Positions 17,121 through 49,406 of a DNA stretch of 64,000 nucleotides are shown piece by piece. Location: positions 34,224,001 to 34,288,000 of the forward strand of contig OU612068.1 in assembly GCA_914767715.1 (NCBI GenBank). Reading direction: 5' to 3'. This stretch comes from Membranipora membranacea. Its lineage: Eukaryota > Bryozoa > Gymnolaemata > Cheilostomatida > Membraniporidae. Made by a program: the position numbers and the translations under genes. Numbering within the stretch: position 1 is the stretch's first letter; each line of letters begins with the position of its first letter. Under the pieces are notes generated by a model. It saw only the letters and a list, made by a program, of their open reading frames with translations, was not told where the DNA came from and did not search any database.

Positions 17121-20100
17121 TCAGCCGAGACCAGATTTCATAATGTCTAAGAGATCACTGAACTCAGTGTAGAGGCGCTGAAGTTTAAGATTTGATCCGA
17201 TTATTGGTAGAATATCCTCTAATAATTCTCTTCTGTCTAGATTCTAAAAAGAAAGCAAAGTAAGCGATATCAGAAAATCTTACATTGATGAGCTTAATTA
17301 AGAGAGTGGAAATGGGACCCAAGTATTAACAAGAAATATACAGCTGTTAAAATTGAGGGGGTGCTTGTGCTCAAATTCTGCCCAGATTGCTCAATTATCA
17401 ATCACCTTCTGACCATTGATAATGGAGGGATGAAACTACAAGCCATGCTGGTGGTCATTAGCATCTTCAGTTTAGGTTACATATTGTTTCTGCAGGGTGT
17501 TTCTTCAGCACATCAAACAGTATCAATATTGAAGCTAGCGAAGTATTGTAGTCAGTCCGGAAGTTTCATGCTTTCATGCAATAAATCGTTCACTCATCTC
17601 AATCACTACTAACCATTATAGGAGTGGTGATAATCAGGTGATTATTTGTAGCAGGATGATTATTTGATGTAGATGGCCCACCAGGCAGGGTATTATGTAC
17701 ATCAGTTGTTTGCCCATGTGAGGTAGCTGTTGGTTCTTCAGTTAGATTCTGACCGGTCGGGAGTTTTCCCCTCTTGGATTTATATACAACCTTTGTACAG
17801 TGAGAGCACAACTCTCGAAGTTTAATCTCATCATCTGCAATAAGTACAAAATCGCACAGTACGTTTATAGGGCTTGATCAAGGATCATATCTGATAGTAA
17901 TTTATATCGCTGAGTAATGTGTTCCACAAAGAACTATGACAATAACTGGTTATCTTAATTACAATAATAAAAATCTGAAATTAAAGATTTTAAACCTCTG
18001 CCTTAATCTGTAGGCTTTATCGCATTCAAAATCTATGAATGGTCTATTAATTAAACTTATATTATATATATATATATATATAGATTAATTAAACTTATAT
18101 ATATTATATATATAAGTTTAATTAATCCTTTTTCTAACATGACTGTTACATACCGTGCTGGACGAGATATCTGACATATGCGAGTAACCAGTTCCTATAC
18201 TCAGCAGAGCTATTTAGAGCTCGACACAGAGCCATCTGATTCTGTATATGAGCGAGTGTACAATGCTGCTGTGTCAGGGCGTCAGACTTATATACACGAT
18301 TCAGTGATGTAGAAGACCTGACAAGTAAAACAAAAGTTGTCAACATGTTTGGACACAGTGTTGGATGTAATCTGCAGACTGAGTAATGAAGGATCCTCTG
18401 GGCACAGCACATGTTCGGCGGCAAGTTTCTCTCATTTTTGCAGTCAGGTCTCCCCTGCCTGAAAAACTGAGAGCCTTAACAATATCCCATTCACACAGTT
18501 ATACTCACAGCTGGAGGTTATGGACTATAGCAGCTACTTTATCCTCTTCCTTTGATTGCATGATATGAGTTTTATTTACAATTTCCTGACTACAGTACTG
18601 CCGTATGCTATCCTCTGCTTTTCGGAAAGACAACCTGCAAACGGATTTTAACTTACTCTATATATTGTTGAGCACTAGAAGTATGGATGAGATGGAAAAC
18701 AAAAACCAATAACAATCAAACTCAAATACCCAGAGGATACTGCGTTTGCGTATACATGTCAGTTCCTGTCGTGTCTGTTCCCTAAAGTGCGGCGGTACAG
18801 AACTTCACATGTGGGATCAGCAGGGTGGACAAGCGGCAGTCCAATATTGTGGATTTTCCATTAACTCATGTATGATTTACAAGTAGTTGTAGGGCCTTCC
18901 TGATAACAAGCATGAGGGATATGTGTGCACAGATTTAATATTATCTACTGTCTTCATACTCATTCAGTAGAGCACATACATGAAGTTCCAATGTTTTTAA
19001 TTGTTTTAATACCTTGTCTAGAGTGACTCACTATGTTTTGAGATTGGTGTGGTATATATAAGAGTTACTCACCATGTTTTGAGATTGGTGTGGTATATAT
19101 AAGAGTTTGAGAGTTACTCACCATGTTTTGAGATTGGTGTGGTATATATAAGAGTTACTCACCATGTTTTGAGATTGGTGTGGTATATATAAGAGTTACT
19201 CACCATGTTTTGAGATTGGTGTGGTATATATAAGAGTTTGAGAGTTACTCACCATGTTTTGAGATTGGTGTGGTATATATAAGAGTTACTCACCATGTTT
19301 TGAGATTGGTGTGGTATATATAAGAGTTTGAGAGTTACTCACCATGTTTTGAGATTGGTGTGGTATATATAAGAGTTACTCACCATGTTTTGAGATTGGT
19401 GTGGTATATATAAGAGTTACTCACCATGTTTTGAGATTGGTGTGGTATATATAAGAGTTTGAGAGTTACTCACCATGTTTTGAGATTGGTGTGGTATATA
19501 TAAGAGTTTGAGAGTTACTCACCATGTTTTGAGATTGGTGTGGTATATATAAGAGTTTGAGAGTGACTCACTATGTTTTGAGATTGGTGTGGTATATATA
19601 AGAGTTACTCACCATGTTTTGAGATTGGTGTGGTATATATAAGAGTTTGAGAGTTACTCACCATGTTTTGAGATTGGTGTGGTATATATAAGAGTTACTC
19701 ACCATGTTTTGAGATTGGTGTGGTATATATAAGAGTTTGAGAGTTACTCACCATGTTTTGAGATTGGTGTGGTATATATAAGAGTTACTCACCATGTTTT
19801 GAGATTGGTGTGGTATATATAAGAGTTTGAGAGTTACTCACCATGTTTTGAGATTGGTGTGGTATATATAAGAGTTACTCACCATGTTTTGAGATTGGTG
19901 TGGTATATATAAGAGTTACTCACCATGTTTTGAGATTGGTGTGGTATATATAAGAGTTTGAGAGTTACTCACCATGTTTTGAGATTGGTGTGGTATATAT
20001 AAGAGTTTGAGAGTTACTCACCATGTTTTGAGATTGGTGTGGTATATATAAGAGTTTGAGAGTGACTCACTATGTTTTGAGATTGGTGTGGTATATATAA

Positions 20101-23100
20101 GAGTTACTCACCATGTTTTGAGATTGGTGTGGTATATATAAGAGTTTGAGTTTGAGAGCCAGATACAGGGTAAATTAGATTCCGTGAGAAAGCACTGGCT
20201 TAGAGATAATGACCCGTTTATTAACTGTGATACATCTAATGATGATACTATACACTGCATAGATTCAAAATTCCTACAACAACACAGTATATTAACATAT
20301 TATGTAATACAGGCCATGCCATGCCATTATTAAAAACTCCTGGAAAAATAACATGGCCATCCATCCAAAGTACCATAAACTAGCGTCGTGTGACAAGTCT
20401 AACCGTAAACACAAAAACAAATAACAACAAGTTCTGTTTGCTCGAAAAAGTATACTAATAACATTTTAGTTATAATGCTTTCCTTCTCATTAGGACAAGA
20501 ACACGAAAGGCTACTTTACTAGCTACTTAAAGGGAGCAAAAACTGCTGAGTATCTGTAAATGATCACTTTGTAGAGTATAGTATATATATAATCTTTATT
20601 ACTGAACCAATGATCATCTTCTAAAAATTAGAGGCGACCTTTAGAGGTTTCATCAAGTAAGAACAGAAGCAGTAGACTTACCAGAGAGAGAGTTTGGAGT
20701 GACTTGTAATACACAAGCAATGATGTCTATTTACAGAGAGGTGAGAAATATCAGAATCAAGTATTATATCAGGTAGAAGTCTATGACCAGATGTGTTATA
20801 TACAGAGAGACTTCGCTCCTTACATGCTGAGCATACCAGATATCTGTAACAAGAGACAACTGACAGGTCAATTTCTACTTTACATATCAGAAAAATCAGC
20901 TAAACAGTTCATCTGAGTCAAGTTAAAATACATAGGTCTCAGGGATAAGGTACAACATGAGTACTCATTCATGTAGGCTGACATTGAAAAATCAAACACA
21001 AACTTATGTTTCATATACTAATACAGTCAATTCAATTTACTATAAATCGCAACATAATTCTCAATATCCATTTATAGCTCTTACACTCCTCCATGACAAA
21101 TCATACTTACAATTACAACGTATAATATATTAACTTACTGGCTGGCTTTAACATCTATCACAGGATTACTGAACATGGCAGACCAGGAGCTTGTCCTTAG
21201 TTGAGCTTGTAGGGAGCTGAGGCTAGGACCACCAGTTGGTTGAATGCGATTGGTCACTGTGATATCAATCCGCCAATCATCAGCAGAATGCTAGAAAATA
21301 TAAGTGAATGGGTTTATTACTTAGAGAACAAAAACAAAACACTCAGGTCAAAAGACCAGTGATTTAATAAAGACGCAACTTCAAATCGCACAATGCAATT
21401 TCTGTTTGTTTAATCATCTTCCTTGCTTTAACAGGTTTCCAACGGTGTACAGAAGGTCAATATCTGATGACCCCCAAGCCTTTTCCTTAGTCAACAACAA
21501 GGATACTGACACACGATGTATGAGTATGATGATACTGACACACAATGTATGAGTATGATGATACTGACACACGATGTATGAGTATGATGATACTGACACA
21601 CGATGTATGAGTATGATGATACTGACACACAATGTATGAGTATGATGATACTGACACACGATGTATGAGTATGATGATACTGACACACAATGTATGAGTA
21701 TGATGATACTGACACACGATGTATGAGTATGATGATACTGACACACAATGTATGAGTATGATGATACTGACACACAATGTATGAGTATGAGATGAGATGA
21801 CACTCACATGATACGATAGTGTTTTCTTTATTTCAGGTACAGGCAGAGACTTGACAGAGGGTTGTATCTGCTGTATGACTGTAGGAGTTACCTGTCCCTG
21901 TAAGTAATGAGAATCACACAGGTGAGATATTACATATATAATACGGCTTGTAAAACATTGAACATTACAGAGGTCATCCCGACCATCAATCTTACATGAT
22001 GTATCTAAATCCTGCACAGGTTTTATTTACCGGACAGTGCATTGCATTACGTACTCAATAATTTCTTATTATTTCACATAATCTGACTTGTGCCCATAGA
22101 GTTATTACATACTAATGATGAATATGTTACTATATAATACCCCAATGCTTGTGCCTCACAATAATTTAGGCCAAACAGATGACAGATTTACTTTGGCCTG
22201 TGAACAGGCACAACAAAATAAGCTCCACAGATCATCAGTAGTTTATTCAAGCCTCTATCTTCCAAACTAAACGGTGGAGGATGTTCATATTTGGCTTCTG
22301 TTTAGATTATAATATTTTGACCTTACAGCATTGTATCAAGTTATATGAATTGTTGGTCAACAGATAGATTTTTGTGGTAATGAAGTACAAAATCAGCGAT
22401 CCCCAGATTATTCATTGTCATACCTGAGATGTACTCGGGACTAGCTGTGCTGCCTCAGGTTGTGTAGCTGATTGTGGTGTATCCTTCTTCTGTTTCTTAT
22501 TAGCCTGTGGGGGCGGAGCTTTCCGCTTCACCGCTATCTTATTCACCACCTCCTTTTCTTTCTGAGGTAGATTCTCCACAGACGATGACGCCGAGACAGG
22601 CTTTGAGGATTGACTAGATGAAGATGGCTTAGATTTTGATCTGTACATACAGAATCATAGATCATAGTGAAAATATTTATTTTCAATCACATTAGTCAAG
22701 AATGAAACCTGTGGGTGTCCTTCACTAGAATATCACAATTTAATTTCCTCCTATCATAAAGTATGCTCATTAGAACACAGCCTATAAAAAGATTACTTTG
22801 GGGTTGAAATCTTTTTGACAATGACAGTATATTATGAATCAGTTATTTGTGTAATTATTTGAACAGTTATGAGCTATAATGCTTGGTTTACATACTTGCT
22901 GGGATCAGTTGTATCTGTTGCAGTCTTGACTTTTTTAGGAGTAGCACCTTTTGCCTCAGCTGAAGACATCGGCTAAATAAAAAAAATATAAAATATACTA
23001 AATGCAATCCAGTGAACTAAAAAAACATCTATAATCTTTCCAGCAGGGCCATATATTTATTAGTGCATTGTTTTGCAGGCAAGCTTTTAATTTTCTCACC

Positions 23101-26100
23101 TGCATGACAGCCATTGCAGCCTCCGGTAGTTCAGTCTCATTCTCTTCACCACTAGTAGGTTTGTTATTGCGAGTAAACGAGTCGAAGCACACCACAGGAG
23201 ACTTGCTATCTGTGTTGGTGTTTGGTCTAGCAAACAATGACGCATCATCAGAGGAGGCGTGCTCTATCACAATCTTACTAATCTCATTGGTCGATGTGAA
23301 AACAGGGAGAGGAGGCACCACATCACTGTAAAGGGAAATAATAAAGTCAGGTGTAACGCTGTACTCTTCATAAAAAGATTTGAATTGCACATTGTAAAAA
23401 CCTAACCAACATTGTGTAACTAGAATTGCTCAATAATCATCACAGAACATCACAAGAACAAAGCTTAATCCACTGCTGACACAGCTGGGCTTTGCCAAGC
23501 AGAGCCACCAGTCAAAAGTTTAAATAGAGGGTTGTGGCATCAAAACATCTAGCCAGTAGCCATCTAGCCAGCTTTGAGATCTGAGATCCAACACTTTTAT
23601 TAGTGATGGATCTCAGCTAGATTTTAAAGGCACCTGATTGGTCAGTGTCAACTTTTGTCATCACTAGTGGCGGATGGCTGGGGAAGAAGATACTCCCTAC
23701 TTTTTGAGAGCGCATATAACTCCATGCAAAGCTTCTGGCTATATGTTTTGATCCCACAACTCTCTATTTTAATCTTTGACTGGTGGCTCTGCTGGACAAA
23801 GCCCAGCTGTGGCAGCAGTGGTTTAACTTACCCTACTGCTGGAGGAGGAGAGATGAATATTGGAGTTATTCGTCTTCTACCATCTTTTGTTCTTGTCTCT
23901 ATCTGTTTACTGGGAGTCTAAAAATTAATTATATATTATGATTATTTTCATGATTTCATTATTCAGCAGAAGCTATATTAAAACAAAAATACATTAGAGT
24001 TTTGGAAACTTATGATTATGGCAATGCTTGTGATTCTGTGTGGCGGGGCTAAAAATAATAATATACAGTTGACCTTCACAATTCCCAAATATAAACTTTG
24101 CTATTAATTCAGACCGGCACTGGTAGGAGGGGATCACCTCTTGTTTACATCCATAGCAACAAACATCTGAACTATGACGTCCCCTAAGGGCGTATTCATA
24201 ACTTTCAGCTATTAACCAGTTTATCGGTTTATGCCAGCTTTTATGGAAGATAAGACGTAAGTAGAGAGAGGTATTTACGCACACTTACATTCATAGTGTT
24301 CGATGTCATGGACGAATTTAAGTTAGATGCTGTACCATCCTTTCTTGGTGTATGCTGTCAAAATGAAATATCAAATAATCAAACATCAGATGAAGACTTT
24401 TGATTGTTCGGTGACTTAATAAGTCGCATATTAATATAAATGAAAACATTGAAATACTGTAGGCTATAGATACATGACAAATATAACCCAAATATATGTT
24501 GTCTATTTATTAAGGTTCAGGTGGAGCAGCCAAGTAATTAAATCAGGTAAAGTATCACAGCTTACATAACCATTGACGACTTGTTTGGCAGGCGGAGTAG
24601 GAAGTGTACCATTCATATGAGAGCCGCTGATCTGTAGAGATCCATTACTGATAGTCTGCTGGTGTAACTTTAATAGCTCAACATTTTCAATTATCTGTGT
24701 TGGGGCGTTGCCATTCATCACCACTGAATTCCCATACATTGTGCACAGGAGCTTGGTCTATAAATAAAGAGCATATTTCACGAAGCTGATAATTTGTTGG
24801 TTTGAAGATCTGTCAATTGATGGCAATTAGCAAAACCTGAGAGAAGTATTGAAGGCCTGAATGCAAAATCACATTGTCTGTCAGAGTGAGATTGGATCAT
24901 GTTATTGAGTGTATTTACCACTACAATCACCTTCACATGAGGTCAATCACTGTCTGTTAATCATTTATAATATTCATACTAGCCAGGCCAAGTATGACAA
25001 GTATAGATAATGATGTTAGTCTGAAGAGGAAGTTGATATCAAATGAGCGACATGTTCGTGTTCATACACTAATAAATACTGGCACACCTTTTCATCCTCC
25101 TTTAGAGCTGTCCCTATTTCCTCCCTCGTGAACTCAACGAATGCCATGGAGCCATCAGAGGAACACACAAACAGCTGAGTCCCCTTAGTATTCCTGTGAG
25201 GGTCAAAATAAATGTTTATTAGTTTCCTATATTCACCTTTTGTAACTAGTCTGAGCCCCCCGACTTTTGCCCCTCGCCCGACGGCCCCCCGGCGAAGGAA
25301 AGTCTGAGAACAATGCAGGGTCTTGCTGGAGTTGTCTGCTCTTGAGTGATATAAGTCAATCAAGGGGAGCACTAAAACTGCAATATCTATTGATTTCTAT
25401 TCATGCCACCTACTATATTGCTCCAGGTATGAGAGTTTTCCAGTCAGACTCTGGGAAAAGCAGCCTCATGTTTGGGAAATACCCATGAGCAGAGATATTC
25501 ACTGCCAAGTAGTGAAGAAAATGTCAGCCAGAATTTCTTTCATTTTGAATAAGGGCGGTCATTCATGACATTGACAAAAGATCATACAATGTGTATTATT
25601 GGACCCTAGGCTATATGAAGTAAGATTAATGTAGAAGTAATGAGAGGAAAAATCCAAGCAAATCCTGCAAAGTGCATAGACTACTTTGTAACAGATGATG
25701 TAGCGCAACAGTCTTTCGTCATTTGTGAAAATGTTTATTATACCGCTGTGAACCAAGCAAAAATGCATAGCAACACTATGTGATTTATTTCATAACACAC
25801 ACCTTCCTCATTAACTTGATAAAGAAAGCTTATTTTGTTTTGTTTGAAGATAGATGCAAATACCATGGCTGATAAATGCATTAATGGAAACACTAATTTT
25901 TAACATGAGTTAGAGCTCTGTTAGATTCATCTTACCATGCTAAGTCAATAACTGAGTTATCAAAGAGATCATGTAGCACAACCAGTGGTCTCCTCAAAGC
26001 TGTCAGCTACAATCAAATAATAACCCAGTATGACAGTGCTAGCATCTCAAGATTATGATAATTATTTAGTTCCGATAAAGCTGGGTTCGATTTATTTTAT

Positions 26101-29100
26101 TTTTGACAAAACTGTGTACATTGTAATGATGAATTATTATTTTTAACTCAATCAACATCTAGAATAATAAAAGCACTTTGTCGATTTGATCATGATACAG
26201 TGGTTGACCTCAGTTTTATATCAGCAAATCAAGATGGCAGCATAGTACATTGGGCCTTACTATGTTAGCCTGCTTACTTAGTTAAACATGGAAATGAATC
26301 AGTATTCCTTAAACGCATCCGATTATTTTTTTTTAGGTGAATTTCATAAATTAAATATTTTTTGGAAGGAGTTCATGTAGAGCATTTCTGGATTTGAACC
26401 AACATACCCATATGGAGCAGGAGCTATCTCGACTACCGACCGCACAGCAGCAGTAGTTTACTAGCTTCTCTTTACTTCCTTTAGTCACCTTTCTGGTCAG
26501 CAGCTTAGGGTTAAACCTCTGAAATAATAGAGCAATGGATCAGTCATTGGAAGGAGTCAAAATGATCAGTATCAAAAGCCATAATTTACATTATAACAAT
26601 ATATCACAATATCTCAACTATTATCAATCATCAAATATGGGTTAGCTGTAATAAGCTTTTCGGCTGGAATATGATTAGAATCATATAGATCCCAGGAAAG
26701 ATAGAATATTAAATAGTAAACACATCTGAGACAGTCTGTATATATCAACATTGACACAATAAAGGTACATAAAAACAGAGACTCTGTTATACTGTTAAGT
26801 AATGTAAGTGGCGGTTTGTATATTGGTACTTACCACACAAGAGACAGCTTTCCGATGACCGACAAAGTCCATAGCTGTACTCCAGCCAGTCCTGGATATT
26901 ATCTGGGCTGTAGGTCCCATATTATTCATGGCATGAGCGGAGACCTGTGTCAAATAATCTAATGGCCGTAATTAAATGAAGATTAACGCATGCAGCTGAG
27001 TAAAATCGGGACCAGTTCACCCTGATAGAAGGTCTTAGTCAACCAAGTTACCCGAACAGTGAAATACATCCTGACATACCTTGAAATATGACCCTAACCC
27101 TAGTAACGTGTGCAACAGTACGAGTATACAAAACTGAAAGTTCTTAGTTACAACCTCACCATATAACCACCATCAGGGCTCCATCCTAGCCTTAGGGCAT
27201 GTGTTGTACCTCCAGCCTCTTTAAATGGCTCTGATATAGTTTTCTCCTGTAACCAATCAGAAGTTCTCCACACTATTAGTGTCTTATCGTCAGACTGGGT
27301 GGCCACATACTTACCGATAGGATCCCAGGTTACTCCCTTCACCATACTTGTATGACCTTTCAAAACTTTTATTTGATCTACAAAGGAAAATAAACTGTTA
27401 TTCAATCATATTATTGCAGACTTATTTTTCAAAGTCTTCAAAATCTCAACTGAGGGACGAAATACATAACTTTTTGCACTGACAGTTCTACATTTTGGTT
27501 CTGATCAGATCGAGCTTATATAAACACAGCTGAGATTGACTAGTTTGGTGGTGAGTTGTAAACAACATACCTGGGAATTTTTGAGCATTCCATATAATCA
27601 CAGAGTTATCGACACTGCATGTGGCCAGATAGCTATCCTGTGGAGACCAGGCCAGATCTAACACATCTGACAAAGAAATGAGCAAATAAACATCATTATG
27701 CTGTAGTGTTTTTTCTGCAGTCGAGGAAAAAAGGTTATAACAGTATCTCAAGTTGTTGCATTCAAAGTATCTCAATAAGCCCATATAAAAAACATCAGAA
27801 TATTTCAACATGTTTAGCAAAACAATAAAACAACAAAACAATAAAGGAAATAGACAGATATTTGCACTTTGGCATCATCAGACTTATATCTAAAAGCTGA
27901 AGCATATTACTAAACATGTAATGTAAGCTGGTGGTATAGCTGATAGTAATAATCCTACCTCCTGAGTGACCCCTGAGTGTATGTACACACCTCCATGTCT
28001 CTACATTCTCCTGTACACTACCAAAGGTCTTAGAGGCGCCGCCACCATACCTACAAGTACAACCAAGCCGAAATCAACTGTGTACATCAAACACAGAATC
28101 GACTGTGTACATCAAACATAGAATCAACTGTGTACATCAAACATAGAATCAACTGTGTATATCAAACATAGAATCAACTGTGTATATCAAACATAGAATC
28201 AACTGTGCACCCACACTCTCCTGTGCGGGTTCATCTATATCATATTCAACTTTGAAAGTCTATAGCGCTCTAGAAGGCTTCATATCAGAAAAATTCTGAT
28301 AATTCTGATAACAAAATTACTCAATATGTCTGTATCATTTAACTCCTTCTCAAGTTAAGCTTATTAATGCCGCAGAATCAACCATCAATCTTGAAATTGA
28401 TTATTAAGACTGATTACCTCCAAATCATGATAAGTTTATCGTCTCCAGCCGACGCCAGCCATGTACCATTGTTACTCCAGCGTACACAGTTCACACAGGC
28501 AAAGTGATTATCCATCTGACACAACATCCGAGGTAAGGAGGAGCTCTTCTCATTACTAACATCGCTAATCGGCAGCACACTCCATATAGTTATTCTCCCT
28601 GAGGACTCCCCTAAAGTACACGGTATACCATGTCTATCAACTGAGCTGTACAGTACAGTAACAATACATCTCAGATAAAAACTCGCTCATCTGGCAGGGC
28701 ATCATCAATTTTTCTGATTTTTGACGGACTTATCTGAATCCAGACACACTTAAAGACTTTGTTTGAGGCTGCTCTTTTGTATCACATCTTATTCTCCATA
28801 TTTTATTCTATCATGTGAGCGATTTTCAGCTTTAGAATCCAAATATTGAAGAAGTGATGGCCTCTCAAACTTCCGGGGTGATTGCCTTCAATCGGCATTG
28901 GGAATAAGCGGATGTTTCCCATGGGGTATGTCACAACCATAGACATGTGACATAGACATTATGAGTTATTAGTTAATACACTAATAATCGCAATAATTGA
29001 TGATCAAAATTCAGACTTGGGTGGGAATGGAACCCGGGTCCCCATACCTCTAGGCAACGACGCTACCATCACGCCACTTGGACCAACTAGGTTAACTGGC

Positions 29101-30803
29101 TGTGACCAGGGAGAATGCTGTGACGTACCCTAGGGATTGCAGGCTGATTTTTACTGCCGATAAATTGCCGTCACCTTGGAAGTTTGAGAGGCCATAACTT
29201 CCTCAATATTTGGATTCTAAAGCTGAAAATCGCTCACATGATAGAATAAAATATGGAGAATAAGATGTGATACAAAAGAGCAGCCTAAAACAAAGTCTTT
29301 AATCTGTAGACTACAATTGCGTGTGAAGTGAGAGGCTGTATTTACAAAGATATGAAGCAAAAAATTTGGCTCTGAAGCTTTTATAGATCAGTATGGATGC
29401 AGTACACGTTGAATACTGAGAAAGTTAGAGTACCTTGCCCGGCTGTAGCAAATCGACTTCCATCTGGATGAACGTCAATGGAGAAAATCGGCTTCCCTGT
29501 AACAGATAACCAAAAGCGTTATACTGTGGCCACACCTCAGGCACATGCCTTGATGGTAGGCGTAAGCCTACATACATGGGACTCACAATTAAAATCATGG
29601 ACTGGAAATGTTCATAAATCTTCGGTGATAAATGATACTTGGTTTGTATGTGTTTTAGGATTTCTAGCTAATGCATAATAATAATACCCTAGCCCTTGCA
29701 ACCTCATATAGGGAGTAATTCTCGGTTTGCACTGCTAAATCATGACTTATTAAGAAAAAGAAAAAAACCATGAAAATTATCACGATTTCACACGCGAAGT
29801 AATGCTGTGAGGTCCATGCTTTTAAAGCGATGGGAGGTAAGCTTGTCAAGTAAGTCTAGGTTACCTTTTATTTGAAATAGTTAAATGCAATAATGAAGGA
29901 TTATAGAGTAGCTTAGGTTAAATAATTACTATACATCATTCGACATTCAAGACTTAACTTTAGATCACTTAACGTAGATACCTCCAAACTGGGTTACGCT
30001 ACTATTTAAATGTTCAGTCCTTATCTGACTAGCACATTCTTCATAGTGTTTAGCCACTGATTGCACCTCGGACTAGCTCATGCTCATTTAAGTTCCGCAG
30101 CTTAATTCTAGGCACAGCAGGAAGTCAACCAGCAGGTAACGCACTTTCATGTCACAAAATCTGGGTGATCCTACATTGAAACTGCAGGTGAAATGCATCA
30201 ATGCCAACAACATGTAACCGAGAGTGCACATACCTTTGAACAATGGTGTGGAGCTGCAGTAGGCCTTAGCTTATCGGTCTATTTTAGTAGGCCTACCGCA
30301 ATTATTAAGATTCATTGTTCAACCAATACTACTATGGAGGAGCAATAAAACATTTAGAGTAAGGTTGTATTAACCTTGATTTACAATGGTGAAATGCAAT
30401 TATTCGTTATTCATTCAAATAAATGGACAGAGAAGACTGGAAGTAGAAGAGTCTCTTTTATGCTTTGCTGTTATTTAATTGGCATGCCAATTTAGGGATG
30501 ACAGTGAGTGTGACAGTCACTGAGTCAAGACAGATTATCTGACAGATATATGCTGGCCCTGTCTACTGCACATATGGCACATATGGAGATAAATGGACAA
30601 ACTAATGAGTTTTAATGAGGACTGCTAGAATGTTTATGTTAATAATAGTAGTTACAAGTAAATAAGTCAGAAGAAATAAAAAATAAATAGATAGATTAGT
30701 CTAGTCTTAGAATTTCATTTGAAAAAGTGACAGTGAGTGTTGTTCACAATATTTAATTTCTCTTACCATTATGATTGACCCAAGGAGGCTTTAGAATCTT
30801 CAT
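17121..30803 (-). CDS. HIRA: HIRA histone chaperone, 24 coding exons
   Basis: Exons in transcript order: 30767-30803, 29434-29496, 28418-28610, 27959-28050, 27571-27666, 27160-27377, 26834-26944, 26408-26518, 25936-26006, 25088-25193, 24566-24757, 24289-24354, 23832-23917, 23100-23325, 22896-22972, 22424-22640, 21808-21897, 21139-21290, 20682-20843, 20112-20273, 18509-18634, 18154-18317, 17614-17834, 17121-17243. Sum is 3162 nt, 1053 residues; human HIRA has 1017. It starts MKILKPPWVNHNGKP as in vertebrates. Seven WD repeats fill about 1-350 (MLCQMDNHFACVNCVRWSN, LRGHSGD, GHRKAV). The ASF1-binding B domain (IETRTKDGRRRITPIF) is near 456-471. A Ser/Lys-rich linker follows, then the Hira domain from about 720 and a conserved LLEDILPIIGSNLKLQRLYTEF end. 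HIRA deposits H3.3 outside S phase with UBN1 and CABIN1 partners. Several introns carry tandem arrays, and one array copies an exon end (see 19021). Confidence 0.95.
18060..18130. repeat. AT-rich palindrome in HIRA intron
   Basis: A TA dinucleotide run joins a near-perfect palindrome: ATTAATTAAACTTATATATA reads into its own complement up to 18128. It lies 20-90 bp downstream of the 5' splice site of the exon 18154-18317. Such sequences extrude or stall replication easily. Confidence 0.85.
19021..20150 (-). repeat. 25-copy tandem array of a HIRA exon end plus its 5' splice site
   Basis: Units of 41 bp and 49 bp alternate irregularly. On the minus strand each holds the last 31-41 coding bases of the HIRA exon 20112-20273 (TATATACCACACCAATCTC, then AAAACATG) followed by the donor GTGAGTAA. 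The unit next to the exon body (donor at 20110-20111) is the working one; its encoded IYHTNLKTW matches the conserved HIRA segment ending in Trp before the next exon at 18634. The other 24 lie in the intron. Three copies (near 19021, 19561 and 20062) have GTGACTCACTATG on the plus strand, so their donors read CATA then GTGAGT. The 49-bp form adds CTCAAACT, also an exon sequence. Confidence 0.95.
21501..21790 (-). repeat. 29-bp tandem array in HIRA intron, about 10 copies
   Basis: The unit is GATGATACTGACACACRATG followed by TATGAGTAT. Because 29 is not a multiple of 3 and the unit lacks stops on the minus strand, all three minus frames stay open through it. This explains the long Ser/Tyr/Val/His-rich frames there, which are not genes. 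It starts about 18 bp downstream of the donor of exon 21808-21897. Confidence 0.9.
23471..23821. mobile_element. Short inverted-repeat element (MITE-like) in HIRA intron
   Basis: About 90-bp imperfect inverted arms (23471-23560 and 23735-23821) begin CACTGCTGACACAGCTGGGC and end with its complement, GCCCAGCTGTGGCAGCAGTG. TTAA lies just outside both arms. No transposase is present. The right arm ends 11 bp before the end of HIRA exon 23832-23917, so it lies next to the 5' splice site. Confidence 0.7.
28072..28208 (-). repeat. 26-bp tandem array in HIRA intron, about 5 copies
   Basis: Units of AATCAACTGTGTACATCAAA plus CATAG repeat about five times, starting some 20 bp upstream (in transcript sense) of the acceptor of exon 27959-28050. 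The array occupies the branch-point and polypyrimidine region of this intron. Confidence 0.85.
28750..29302. mobile_element. Inverted-repeat element in HIRA intron 2
   Basis: Arms of about 128 bp (28750-28877 and 29174-29302) are near-perfect complements. Shared landmarks include TAAAGACTTTG, TATCACATCTTATTCTCCAT, GAGCGATTTTCAGCTTTAGA and GGCCTCTCAAACTTCC. The 300-bp loop contains a tRNA-like segment. No coding capacity is seen. Confidence 0.8.
29015..29085 (-). mobile_element. tRNA-derived SINE head (candidate)
   Basis: On the minus strand the segment reads GGTCCAAGTGGCGTGATGGT, then AGCGTCGTTGCC, and further on GGGTTCCATTCCC. This spacing resembles a pol III A box followed by a B box (family form GGTTCGANTCC). 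It lacks a clean cloverleaf, so I call a SINE head, not a tRNA gene. It sits in the loop of the inverted repeat 28750-29302. Confidence 0.45.
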
Positions 30804-40984: not shown

Positions 40985-43900
40985 CTAGTCATCATCACTG
41001 GCGCTTCCCAGGCATGCGCACACTATACATAGCGCCAGGAGAAATATGATCGGAGCGTAGATCATGAATATGAAGAATGCGGATGCCATGGCACAGAGGT
41101 AGAACAATGCCATAATAACACAACATGTAAAATGTCCTGAGCAGCTTAGCAAAAATGTTTTAGCATTAACCAGAAAGTTTGACACAGACGCTACGGCCAA
41201 CAAGATCACAGTTGCCATCCATTGCCCCGTGGTGTTATCCAAAATATAATCAGTACTGAAAATTAAGCCTAAATAACATGTTATGTTAACTATACCCACT
41301 GGGAACATCCAAAAGTAAAGGAAAGTGCCGAATTTGGTTAATGCCATCGCATACATGTTTTTATGGAATGAAGGGGTGTCTCGAGTGAGGCTGGTCATCA
41401 GTCGGTTGGTTGAGTCGAATCTTCTAGGGTCTAATTTCATGATGTTGACACCACATTGCAAAGTGACCTCATAAATATGAGATATGTAAAACATCACCAT
41501 GTTTAATGTATTATTGCAAACAATGAATACACAGAGAACAGCTCGTGGCAGAATCTCACCTAAAACATTGTATGAAGAGCGCCTTTGTGGCCAGGAGTAT
41601 GCTGTTAGAGCTGCTAGCCAGAGCAGAACCACAAGAAAACTCCCGATGAGGAAAAGTAAAAAACGGCCAAAGAACACTCTTATATAACCACGGATTTGTA
41701 TGACGGTGATGAGCCGAAATACAAACACTAGAACCAAAGATAAGATACAGAGATAGAACGGCACCCCTCTGTATGTGTTATAGGTGGAGAGCAGAAGCAT
41801 ACAAGATACGCATAGCTGAGGAAAGATGCTTAGTTCACTAAGATACTGCTGTATCTGCTCCATGTAGAAGTATGACACAACTCTAGATTCACCCTTTACA
41901 TCGTTTTCTAGAGGTCTGTATCTGGTAAAGTTAACAGCTGTGAAAGTGATCCACATCAATATGGCACCACCATTGAAGGCACAAGCCACAGCACTAAGTA
42001 CAAAGTTTTCACCAACTACCATGTTGTACACATTTATCCCTATACAAGTACCGAACATGGCTACCAGCCACAATGACCATAACACCTGGAACCAGAATGG
42101 GAGAATAGTTCTCTGTCTGGATAAGATGAGTTGCCATGCAGAATCCCTCAAGGGTTTGAGGTCTTGTGTTTCCATATCGATCACTTTGCCATCACGGAAT
42201 ACTTTCACGCATGAAGCACTAGCCTTCATCATGCAGTACACCCTGCAAAAAGCATGATAATGACTCATAACTATATTTAGATGATGATGTTTCAATGCAG
42301 AGTGTCAACTAAAGATATAATAAAGGCCAGTGTTATCTAACTTGACAAACACAAAGGTATTAGTGATCTCATCTTTTCACACTGTCACAAAACAAAAAAA
42401 TTTCCCTACGTCAAGGCTTGTGTGAACTTTATCCAGAGTACATAGTGCATACTGTAATGTAAATGAAAAGTGTCCCATATAAACTGGATAAAACCTTCAT
42501 GATGATATCTCCGAAAAATGCTAGAAGATGAGCATCCTTAGTCTGCTTACCAGCATGGGAGCAGAAAGCATCCAGCAACTTTATTTCTGCTTTTGCACTG
42601 TTCTCCTCCTGCCTGACAAAATGCTTCCTCTGAGTATTGAAGAAGGTCTTTACCACAGTCTCTACATGATCGGTGGCAAGTCCAGTCACATCTCACATCT
42701 TTCTCCACCATGTTATCACAGCACTGTCTCACTTGTCTCCTACGCTGTACTTCAAGGTCATTAACTACATTGTGATCTGCTTCTGGAGCTCTATCATCTT
42801 CTGGAATCGTGAACAGTTAAATTTTCTGACAAAGCACTTAGACTGAACTGTGAAGCATGGATAGTCAATAAATCTTGGATGACCGTATAGACTGCATGCA
42901 TGTCCAACCTTTTTTCGGATTCGGCCAGATTATGTTTGGCAGCATACCAATTGGCTGCACTACTTTTTGGGAATATTTTACTTGATTAAAAAAGGTTGAT
43001 TAAAAAATTCGAGATACTTGCGATATAGATAAGAATGGGAAATATCTAGGGCTGTATCTGTGGGTTTTAAAGTGGTAGGGCCAGGCGCTAGGTGGTATTG
43101 GGCCTCCCCAGTAATTTTTTTTGAGACAGGTGGTCTTTAGGTGTTCCAGCCCTATTTGGGAAAAAAACTAACAAGCAATCGGCCACTTATGAATCTTTTA
43201 GTCACAATTGAATTACAGGGACATCAAATTCTATCTGATCCCTTCCGTGTTTGAAACTTTGAATTGAAATTCAGTGGACTTATTGTGAACGTTGGTAAAT
43301 GGCCGTCAGCAATTTTGTGTAGTAATTGAAAATAACATGGGAGTCCTAGGAGGTAGGAACCAGAGCTAGAATTAACTGCTTGCAGAGAAGTTGTTTTAGT
43401 TGAGGATATACAGTCAGGAAAATATGTGATTTTGGTAGATTGTCAGTGAACAGGATAATGAGAAGAGTTTTTGTGCAGGCAAGTTTTATCAAAATTCTAA
43501 TTTTAATGATCATCACAGAGCAACATGAACATTTTAAAGCAGATAATATTTAAGATGGGACACCATGACCTTGTTGACAGTGAAACCTCACAAGGTCACT
43601 CAGTGGCTTAAATGAAAATAGGCTATGATTTGGTCTAGGAGTTATCAACCTGTGAATTCAATAGGCTATTATCCAGCACAGTATAAATTCATTTACAGTT
43701 CAGAGTCACTGTTTGAATACACCAATGAACTTAACCTTTAGTTCATTGAATACACAATGGAAACTAGGATTAGATGTTTTGAGTTAGCACAGCAACATCT
43801 CGGTTCTGTGGACCTCCTATGTTCCCATCTATAGTTTGATAACACATATTATTTAGTTTGGGTGGGAGGTAACTGAGCAACAGCGGTGTGATTGCGATTT

Positions 43901-47918: not shown

Positions 47919-49207
47919 TTAATCTTTATCACAGCAACAGCATTTCACGCACACAAACCCTAAACACAGTAATGGAATGCAAAATATGATAGGAGCGTAG
48001 ATCAGGAACGCAAAGAATGCAGATGCCATGGCACAGAGGTAGAACAATGTAATAATAACAAAACATGTAAAATGTCCTGAGCAACTCAGCAAAAATGTTT
48101 AAGCATTTACCAGAAAGGTCGTCACAGACGCTAAGACCACCAAAACCACAGTTGCTATATCCCATCTGAGTGTAGATAGGTAACATGTGATGTTAACTAT
48201 ACCAACTGGAAACATCCAGAAGTAAAGAAGGGTGCCAAATTTGGTCAATGCCATTGCGTACATATTTTTATGGAATGAAGGAGTGTGTCGAGTGAGGCTG
48301 GTCATCAGTTGGTTGGTAAAGTTGAATCTCCTAGGGTCTAATTTCATGATGTTGACACCACATTGCAATGTGACCTCATAAATATGAGATATGTACAACA
48401 TAGCCATGTTTAATGTGTTATTACACACAATGAATACACAGAGAACAGCTCGTGGCAGAATCTCATCTAAAGTGTCGCATGAAGAGCGCCTTTGTGGCCA
48501 GGAGTATGCTATAAGAGCTGCTAGCCAGAGCAGAACCACAAGAAAACTTCAGATGAGGAAAAGTACAAAACGGACAAAGAGCACTCTTATATAACCACGG
48601 ATTTGTATGACGGTGAAGAGCCGAAATACAAACACTAGAACCGAAGATAAGATACAGAGATAGAACGGCACCCCTCTGTATGTGTTATAGGTGGAGATGA
48701 GAAGCATACAAGATACGCATAGCTGAGGATAGATGCTTAGTTCACTAAGATACTGCTGTATCTGCTCCATGTAGAAGTATGACACAACTCTAGATTCACC
48801 CTTTACCTCATTTTCTAGAGGTCTGTATCTGGTAAAGTTAACAGCTGTGAAAGTGATCCACATCAACATGGCACCACCATTGAAGGCACAAGCCACAGCA
48901 CTAAGTACAAGGTTTTCACCAACCACCATGTTGTACATATTTATCCCTATACAAGTACCAAACATGGCTACCAGCCACAATGACCATAACACCTGGAACC
49001 AGAATGGGAGAATAGTTCTCTGTCTGGATAAGATGAGTTGCCACGCAGAATCTCTCAAGGGTTTGAGGTCTTGTGTTTCCATACAGACTACTCTGCCACC
49101 ATCACGGAATACCTTCAGACATGATGGGCTCACCTTCATTATGCAGAACATCCTGTAAGAAAGAGAATATTTCGAGGTTTATATGCTGATGTTGTTTCCG
49201 GTAAACA

Positions 49208-49406
49208 GGGAGGGGGCAGACGGAGGGAGGGACAGGAGGGACAGTAGGGACAGGAGGGACAGGAGGGACAGTAGGGACAGGAGGGACAGGAGGGACAGGA
49301 GGGACAGGAGGGACAGTAGGGACAGGAGGGACAGTAGGGACAGGAGGGACAGGAGGGACAGGAGGGACAGTAGGGACAGGAGGGACAGGAGGGACAGGAG
49401 GAGGGA
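49208..49406 (+). repeat. GGGACAGGA minisatellite
   Basis: Nine-base units, GGGACAGGA and GGGACAGTA, repeat about 20 times in intron 3 of copy 2, about 55 bp upstream of its last exon in plus coordinates. The plus frame reads an Arg/Asp repeat, which I do not take as coding. Copy 1 has no such array at this place. Confidence 0.9.

Follow-up and report, generated by a model that had tools for sequence, protein, structure and literature searches.

The 64,000-nt stretch of DNA analyzed here (henceforth "the window") harbors a gene for HIRA on its minus strand; all coordinates given below are plus-strand positions within the window. The exon borders of this gene were set by eye from the sequence, and the gene model must therefore be regarded as a prediction. 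Its 24 coding exons are joined in a frame that is open from 30803 to 17121 and encodes 1,053 residues, and all 23 of the intervening introns begin with GT and end with AG. When the predicted protein was compared with the sequences of solved structures, 27 matches were obtained at an E-value of 1e-20 or better, the best of them to a WD-40 repeat protein (1.6e-92). Yeast HIR1 matched residues 1–476 of the model (5.4e-64). Human HIRA (5yje) was matched both by the whole model (4e-46) and by its last 399 residues alone (1e-47), and the same 399 residues matched the Pfam Hira family (PF07569; 2.8e-36). The identification as HIRA is based on this combination: a WD40 N-terminus, a Hira domain, and a C-terminal match to human HIRA that spans the junction of exons 20 and 21. 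A separate protein search with the last 399 residues gave 2,093 candidates with shared words, none of which reached an E-value of 0.001. In base composition and gene compactness, the DNA is reminiscent of a demosponge such as Amphimedon. The features that are central to this report are collected in Table 1.

Table 1. Positions of the predicted HIRA gene and of the repeat array at the end of its exon 20 (plus-strand coordinates within the window).
Feature	Position	Strand	Basis or remark
Whole HIRA gene model	17121..30803	-	Coding exons 1-24, 1,053 aa
HIRA exon 20 (162 nt), source of the repeat; its last two bases open codon W843 (TG/G)	20112..20273	-	Gene model; human HIRA 5yje alignment; Pfam Hira domain
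Donor 1 (ATG/GTGAGT), sole donor compatible with full-length HIRA	20106..20111	-	GTGAGT count, translation, gene model
24 further copies of exon end plus donor; donors 2-25 start at 20070...19031	19026..20105	-	Repeat finding, unit comparison
Donor 2, variant ATA/GTGAGTC	20065..20070	-	Lower donor score, predicted hairpin broken
Right border of array, CACTCTAGACAA; shares ACTCT (probable microhomology of the initial duplication) with exon ...CAAACTCTTATA	19014..19025	-	Sequence
Unique rest of intron 20, ending at the acceptor	18635..19013	-	Sequence, gene model; acceptor score 7.9
HIRA exon 21, in frame; supplies the last base of W843	18509..18634	-	Gene model

The 5′ splice site of exon 20 is the first of 25 GTGAGT donors that follow one another on the minus strand from 20111 to 19031. 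The spacing between neighboring donors takes one of two values, 41 nt or 49 nt, each of which occurs 12 times. Tandem Repeats Finder reported the array twice, at 19020–20146 (period 90, score 1579) and at 19020–20150 (period 499, score 2057). Across the window, GTGAGT is found 42 times on the minus strand, with 17 of these outside the array, and 16 times on the plus strand. An initial annotation of this DNA had described 24 extra tandem copies of an exon end with its 5′ splice site in a HIRA intron; the donor count, the repeat finding and a scan of all junctions of the gene (see below) bear that description out. It had further called the 25 splice sites near-identical. The row is indeed near-identical, but it is not uniform: 22 of the 25 sites read ATG/GTGAGT, and all of these are identical from −3 to +6, whereas the other three (donor 2, donor 13 at 19571, and donor 25 at 19031) read ATA/GTGAGTC, with an A at −1 and a C at +7.

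Each unit straddles the end of the exon and the start of the intron. The 41-nt unit consists of 35 exon nucleotides and 6 intron nucleotides, and the 49-nt unit of 39 exon nucleotides, 6 intron nucleotides, and 4 nucleotides at the joint. Counting back from the donor, half of the 24 intron units (12, all of 49 nt) are identical to the exon end over 39 nt and nine (41 nt) over 35 nt; in the remaining three (41 nt), the last base is A instead of G. The unit of "31–41 coding bases" plus GTGAGT that had been proposed at the outset was thus roughly right. A search of prokaryote genome contigs gave no exact match to the unit. Both borders of the array are clean. What lies in intron 20, then, is a junction minisatellite: its homogenized units run head-to-tail, span an exon-intron boundary (as drawn in the gene model), and carry splice signals.

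From the sequence, we conclude that exon 20 is the source and that the intron copies are its duplicates, as the initial annotation had held. The end of the exon aligns with human HIRA (5yje) without gaps and with W on W, and the exon's SNSNS codons are included in this alignment. When the intron units are aligned on CTCT, they appear to be shorter than the exon's CTCTCAAACTCAAACTCT, the DNA for the SNSNS stretch, by 6 or 14 bases. The difference between the two unit lengths, 8 nt, is not a multiple of three, which fits non-coding copies. Moreover, the ATA variant is possible only in non-coding copies, because at the exon it would give TAG in the HIRA frame. Coding length is kept only by the exon copy.

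Is this arrangement peculiar to intron 20? The 23 donor and 23 acceptor junctions of the gene were each compared with their own intron, with 200 shuffles for each of the 46 tests. The donor junction of intron 20 scored 74 against a shuffle maximum of 25; no other junction of the gene, whether donor or acceptor, rose above its own shuffle maximum. Among the 23 HIRA introns, only intron 20 carries copies of its own junction. It is also the longest of them (1,477 nt), and subtracting the 1,080 nt that separate donor 1 from donor 25 leaves 397 nt, compared with a median of 367 nt for the gene. Four more of the 46 junctions had p-values below 0.05 (intron 12 acceptor, 0.005; intron 12 donor, 0.025; intron 23 donor, 0.01; intron 14 acceptor, 0.045), all with scores within their shuffle maximum, and we attribute them to chance or low complexity. 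Two other tandem arrays in the gene were considered as candidate "mirages," the name given to such junction repeats in amphioxus, and were rejected. The first, a 29-bp × 10 array in intron 17 (21502–21790), had a junction score of 17 (p about 0.145); it begins about 17 nt behind the 5′ splice site of that intron. The second, a 25-bp × 5.4 array in intron 3 (28072–28207), was associated with an acceptor score of 12 (p about 0.93); its end lies about 20 nt short of the acceptor of exon 4, and its unit has ACACAG on the minus strand.

The neighborhood holds other repeated features. Intron 2 of HIRA contains a foldback element (28750–29302) whose 160-nt inverted arms are 90% complementary and lie 233 nt apart; we take it to resemble a MITE. 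Elsewhere in the window, two ORFs that resemble those of membrane proteins (40985–42304 and 48549–49178, minus strand) are 88% identical over 208 residues, and no Pfam match was found for either. By eye, the second of these copies runs on into the neighboring ORF 48099–48548 and is thus interrupted. A 9-bp × 19.6 array of GGAGGGACA (49226–49401) is located just upstream of ORF 48549–49178.

The composition of the HIRA array speaks to its history. Its 24 intron units represent four sequences that occur 10, 9, 3 and 2 times. Since no unit sequence is single-copy and no unit bears a private substitution, the array is either young or being homogenized. When the series of unit types is offset against itself by 11 units, 10 of the 13 places agree; among 20,000 label shuffles, 116 reached this level at any shift between 5 and 15. 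A duplication of a block of roughly 500 bp is thus probable. The four repeated unit sequences and the 11-unit shift fit minisatellite turnover. The same 11-unit block (period 499; 10 of 13 unit types alike) could instead have been created or expanded in the assembly, with the true allele having far fewer copies, and the available text of one report states that an amphioxus mirage was apparently misassembled in the genome draft (PMC3087553). We nevertheless consider an artefact improbable here: the copy types are mixed, 3 of the 13 places differ at the 11-unit shift, and both borders are clean. In addition, such an artefact could alter the copy number, but it would not account for the existence of the junction repeat.

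A plausible origin can be read from the borders. ACTCT is common to the exon, which has ...CAAACTCTTATA, and to the intron past the last copy, which has GTGAGTCACTCTAGAC. The seeding event was probably slippage between the exon ACTCT and the intron ACTCT, in which a tandem duplication would have copied the final ~35 bases of exon 20 and the adjoining 6 bases of the intron. A duplication between the two ACTCT motifs would give exactly the 41-nt unit, and the 49-nt unit would need a further event; regarding the order of the units, an initial short unit fits as well as an initial longer unit that later underwent deletions. Unequal exchange or slippage would then have led to the present 24 intron copies, including the repeated 11-unit block. 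Coding constraint would act only at the exon-side edge of such an array, everything behind the first donor being intron. We infer this duplication route, as well as the choice of donor proposed below.

The repeated donors are not equivalent with respect to the protein. In the gene model, intron 20 interrupts codon W843, with two of its bases in exon 20 and the third in exon 21, and another 210 residues come after this tryptophan. We translated exon 20 up to donors 1, 2, 3, 4, 13 and 25: the frame stayed open with donor 1, and each of the other five brought in a stop directly after W843. Because that stop sits in the first intron bases, which are common to all copies, the result holds for all 24 later donors; any of them adds TGA right after W843 and removes the 210 residues. 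Thus, two further statements of the initial annotation stand within the gene model, namely that only the outermost donor fits full-length HIRA and that every other one costs the protein about 210 residues through an immediate TGA.

What might direct the spliceosome to donor 1? To score the exon-20 donor, a small matrix was built from the other 22 donors, which were themselves scored on a matrix that included them. On this scale, the exon-20 donor (10.08) ranks sixth of 23, and the ATA variant scores 6.61. A preference for donor 1 is unexplained by sequence alone: this donor is fairly strong, and nothing between −3 and +6 sets it apart from the 21 other ATG copies. For each of the 25 donor copies the predicted accessibility is close to zero, the three ATA copies being slightly more open (0.001–0.003), and neither predicted pairing nor accessibility singled out donor 1 among the 25. 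Among the 23 HIRA donors, that of exon 20 has the lowest accessibility predicted by folding (6.1e-5). In each ATG copy, a CACCA/UGGUG hairpin of −4.5 kcal/mol is predicted around the donor, and it is broken in the three ATA copies; 3.4% of 1,000 mononucleotide shuffles were as low in energy. This hairpin is unexceptional in the gene: in the same frame (−25 to +6), five of the 23 donors are lower and one is tied. It was rejected as a donor selector, as donor 1 is indistinguishable from the other 21 ATG copies. Donor 1 is singled out by its position, which makes exon 20 a 162-nt exon, as opposed to one of 203–1,242 nt with the other donors.

We propose that the exon-adjacent donor would normally be paired with the acceptor at 18635 and that the array is tolerated because this donor is used. 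Transcripts from later donors would gain an immediate stop and be removed or wasted. The array is, in our judgment, likely to be a neutral or nearly neutral junction minisatellite of the mirage type, spliced at its first donor. The initial annotation had offered U1 buffering, tuning through nonsense decay, and neutral expansion as explanations. Its anatomy stood, but it had missed the described class to which amphioxus mirages and the human CBS 31-bp repeat belong; of its three explanations, the amphioxus cases favor neutral expansion.

The main rival to the neutral reading is a dose effect exerted through the downstream donors, which we consider unlikely. U1 would occupy many of the 25 donors, some downstream sites would be used, and the length of the array would set the HIRA dose; the resulting product would stop after W843 and then be degraded or truncated. 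The immediate in-frame stop (five of the 24 downstream donors translated), the scores of the ATG donors, which resemble those of donors elsewhere in the gene, and the low predicted accessibility of the exon-20 donor are all consistent with this scheme. In addition, a dose effect is not to be dismissed, because the accessible portions of the literature associate the human CBS repeat, which is laid out in the same way, with reduced activity. Set against these points are the amphioxus mirages, which the available accounts report not to disturb splicing, and the fact that the near-identity of the copies is accounted for by turnover. A stronger form of the idea, in which array length serves as a heritable, fast-mutating dial on HIRA because more copies would draw more splicing to downstream donors, each giving a stop after W843, is somewhat less likely still. 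If it were true, the dose of this histone H3.3 chaperone would vary between individuals with repeat number.

The acceptor side of the array was also inspected. It contains 28 AGs, the best of which scores −0.6, compared with 1.4–12.4 for the 23 real acceptors on a small matrix built from those same acceptors. Since the best array AG falls below all real acceptors, exons inside the array are unlikely; a usable acceptor within the duplicated unit, the mark of intron gain, was not found among the 28 AGs with this small matrix. An AG behind the array, at 18899, scores 2.3 and thus exceeds the weakest real acceptor (1.4; the true intron 20 acceptor scores 7.9), but it lies downstream of every copy. 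These observations, and the stop met by any transcript that keeps a copy behind W843, make it very improbable that the repeats represent a stage in intron gain by tandem duplication, with copies being recruited as exons, even though this model is proposed for amphioxus mirages in the accessible text (PMC3087553). Less credible than any of these is a role as a U1 decoy or telescripting array, which would protect the transcript from premature cleavage and polyadenylation: intron 20 does hold many U1-type sites and three ATTAAA motifs, but it is without AATAAA, and introns 1 and 9, which have no arrays, hold four and three such signals.

Apart from its origin, the locus amounts to a natural duplicated-splice-site experiment, with 25 donors in near-identical context, one acceptor, and a single donor, the first, that gives protein. 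It adds HIRA to the genes with junction minisatellites and strengthens the case for a genome-wide look.

We found no description of the HIRA array among the open-licence papers listed, which is weak evidence of absence. Related repeats are known, and the comparisons that follow are with the available portions of the reports. In amphioxus, mirages have been described in BflGb6, BflGb9 and Adh3; the BflGb6 mirage has 6 and 3 units in two haplotypes, that of Adh3 is somatically unstable, and the Adh3 data together with globin RT-PCR suggest that mirages leave regular splicing undisturbed (PMC3087553). TnC and PGBD5 also carry mirages, and those of Adh and TnC are stated to yield no aberrant mRNAs (PMC3902484). 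The units of BflGb6 measure 150–160 bp and lie on the acceptor side, whereas HIRA has 24 copies of 41 or 49 bp on the donor side; BflGb9 has one 157-bp duplicate of the 3′ boundary of an exon, as opposed to 24 copies. Adh3 units span 10–72 bp and the PGBD5 repeats are imperfect, compared with the 41/49-bp units of HIRA.

A closer likeness is found in human CBS. Its VNTR c.1444_1467+7(16_21) comprises, by its notation, 24 coding and 7 intron bases in 16–21 copies (PMC2630376). The CBS 31-bp repeat at exon 13-intron 13 is listed with raised homocysteine (PMC1395315) and is associated with reduced CBS activity (PMC2630376, PMC1395315). Like the CBS VNTR, the HIRA unit joins an exon end to the first intron bases on the donor side, and the copy number is similar; unlike the HIRA array, the CBS repeat belongs to another gene and sequence and is known to vary between people. 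In CBS, the more distal copy of a 68-bp duplication of the intron 7/exon 8 junction is strongly used (PMC2630376). Judging from the 68-bp and 31-bp cases, junction duplications are not always silent or resolved at the first site. In classic duplicated-donor experiments, the intron-proximal donor was often favored. An SR protein tethered between two competing donors favors the intron-proximal one, according to the available text of PMC5585400. Both the SR-protein and the CBS junction cases leave room for a use of later HIRA donors.

Intron gain by tandem genomic duplication has been described for potato RdRp and others. The HIRA array resembles the potato case in being an intragenic tandem duplication that involves splice signals; in the potato case a new intron arises, whereas the HIRA array is without a good acceptor. 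As far as the accessible accounts go, the HIRA array belongs to a known kind, and its copies slightly outnumber those of the compared cases for which copy numbers are stated.
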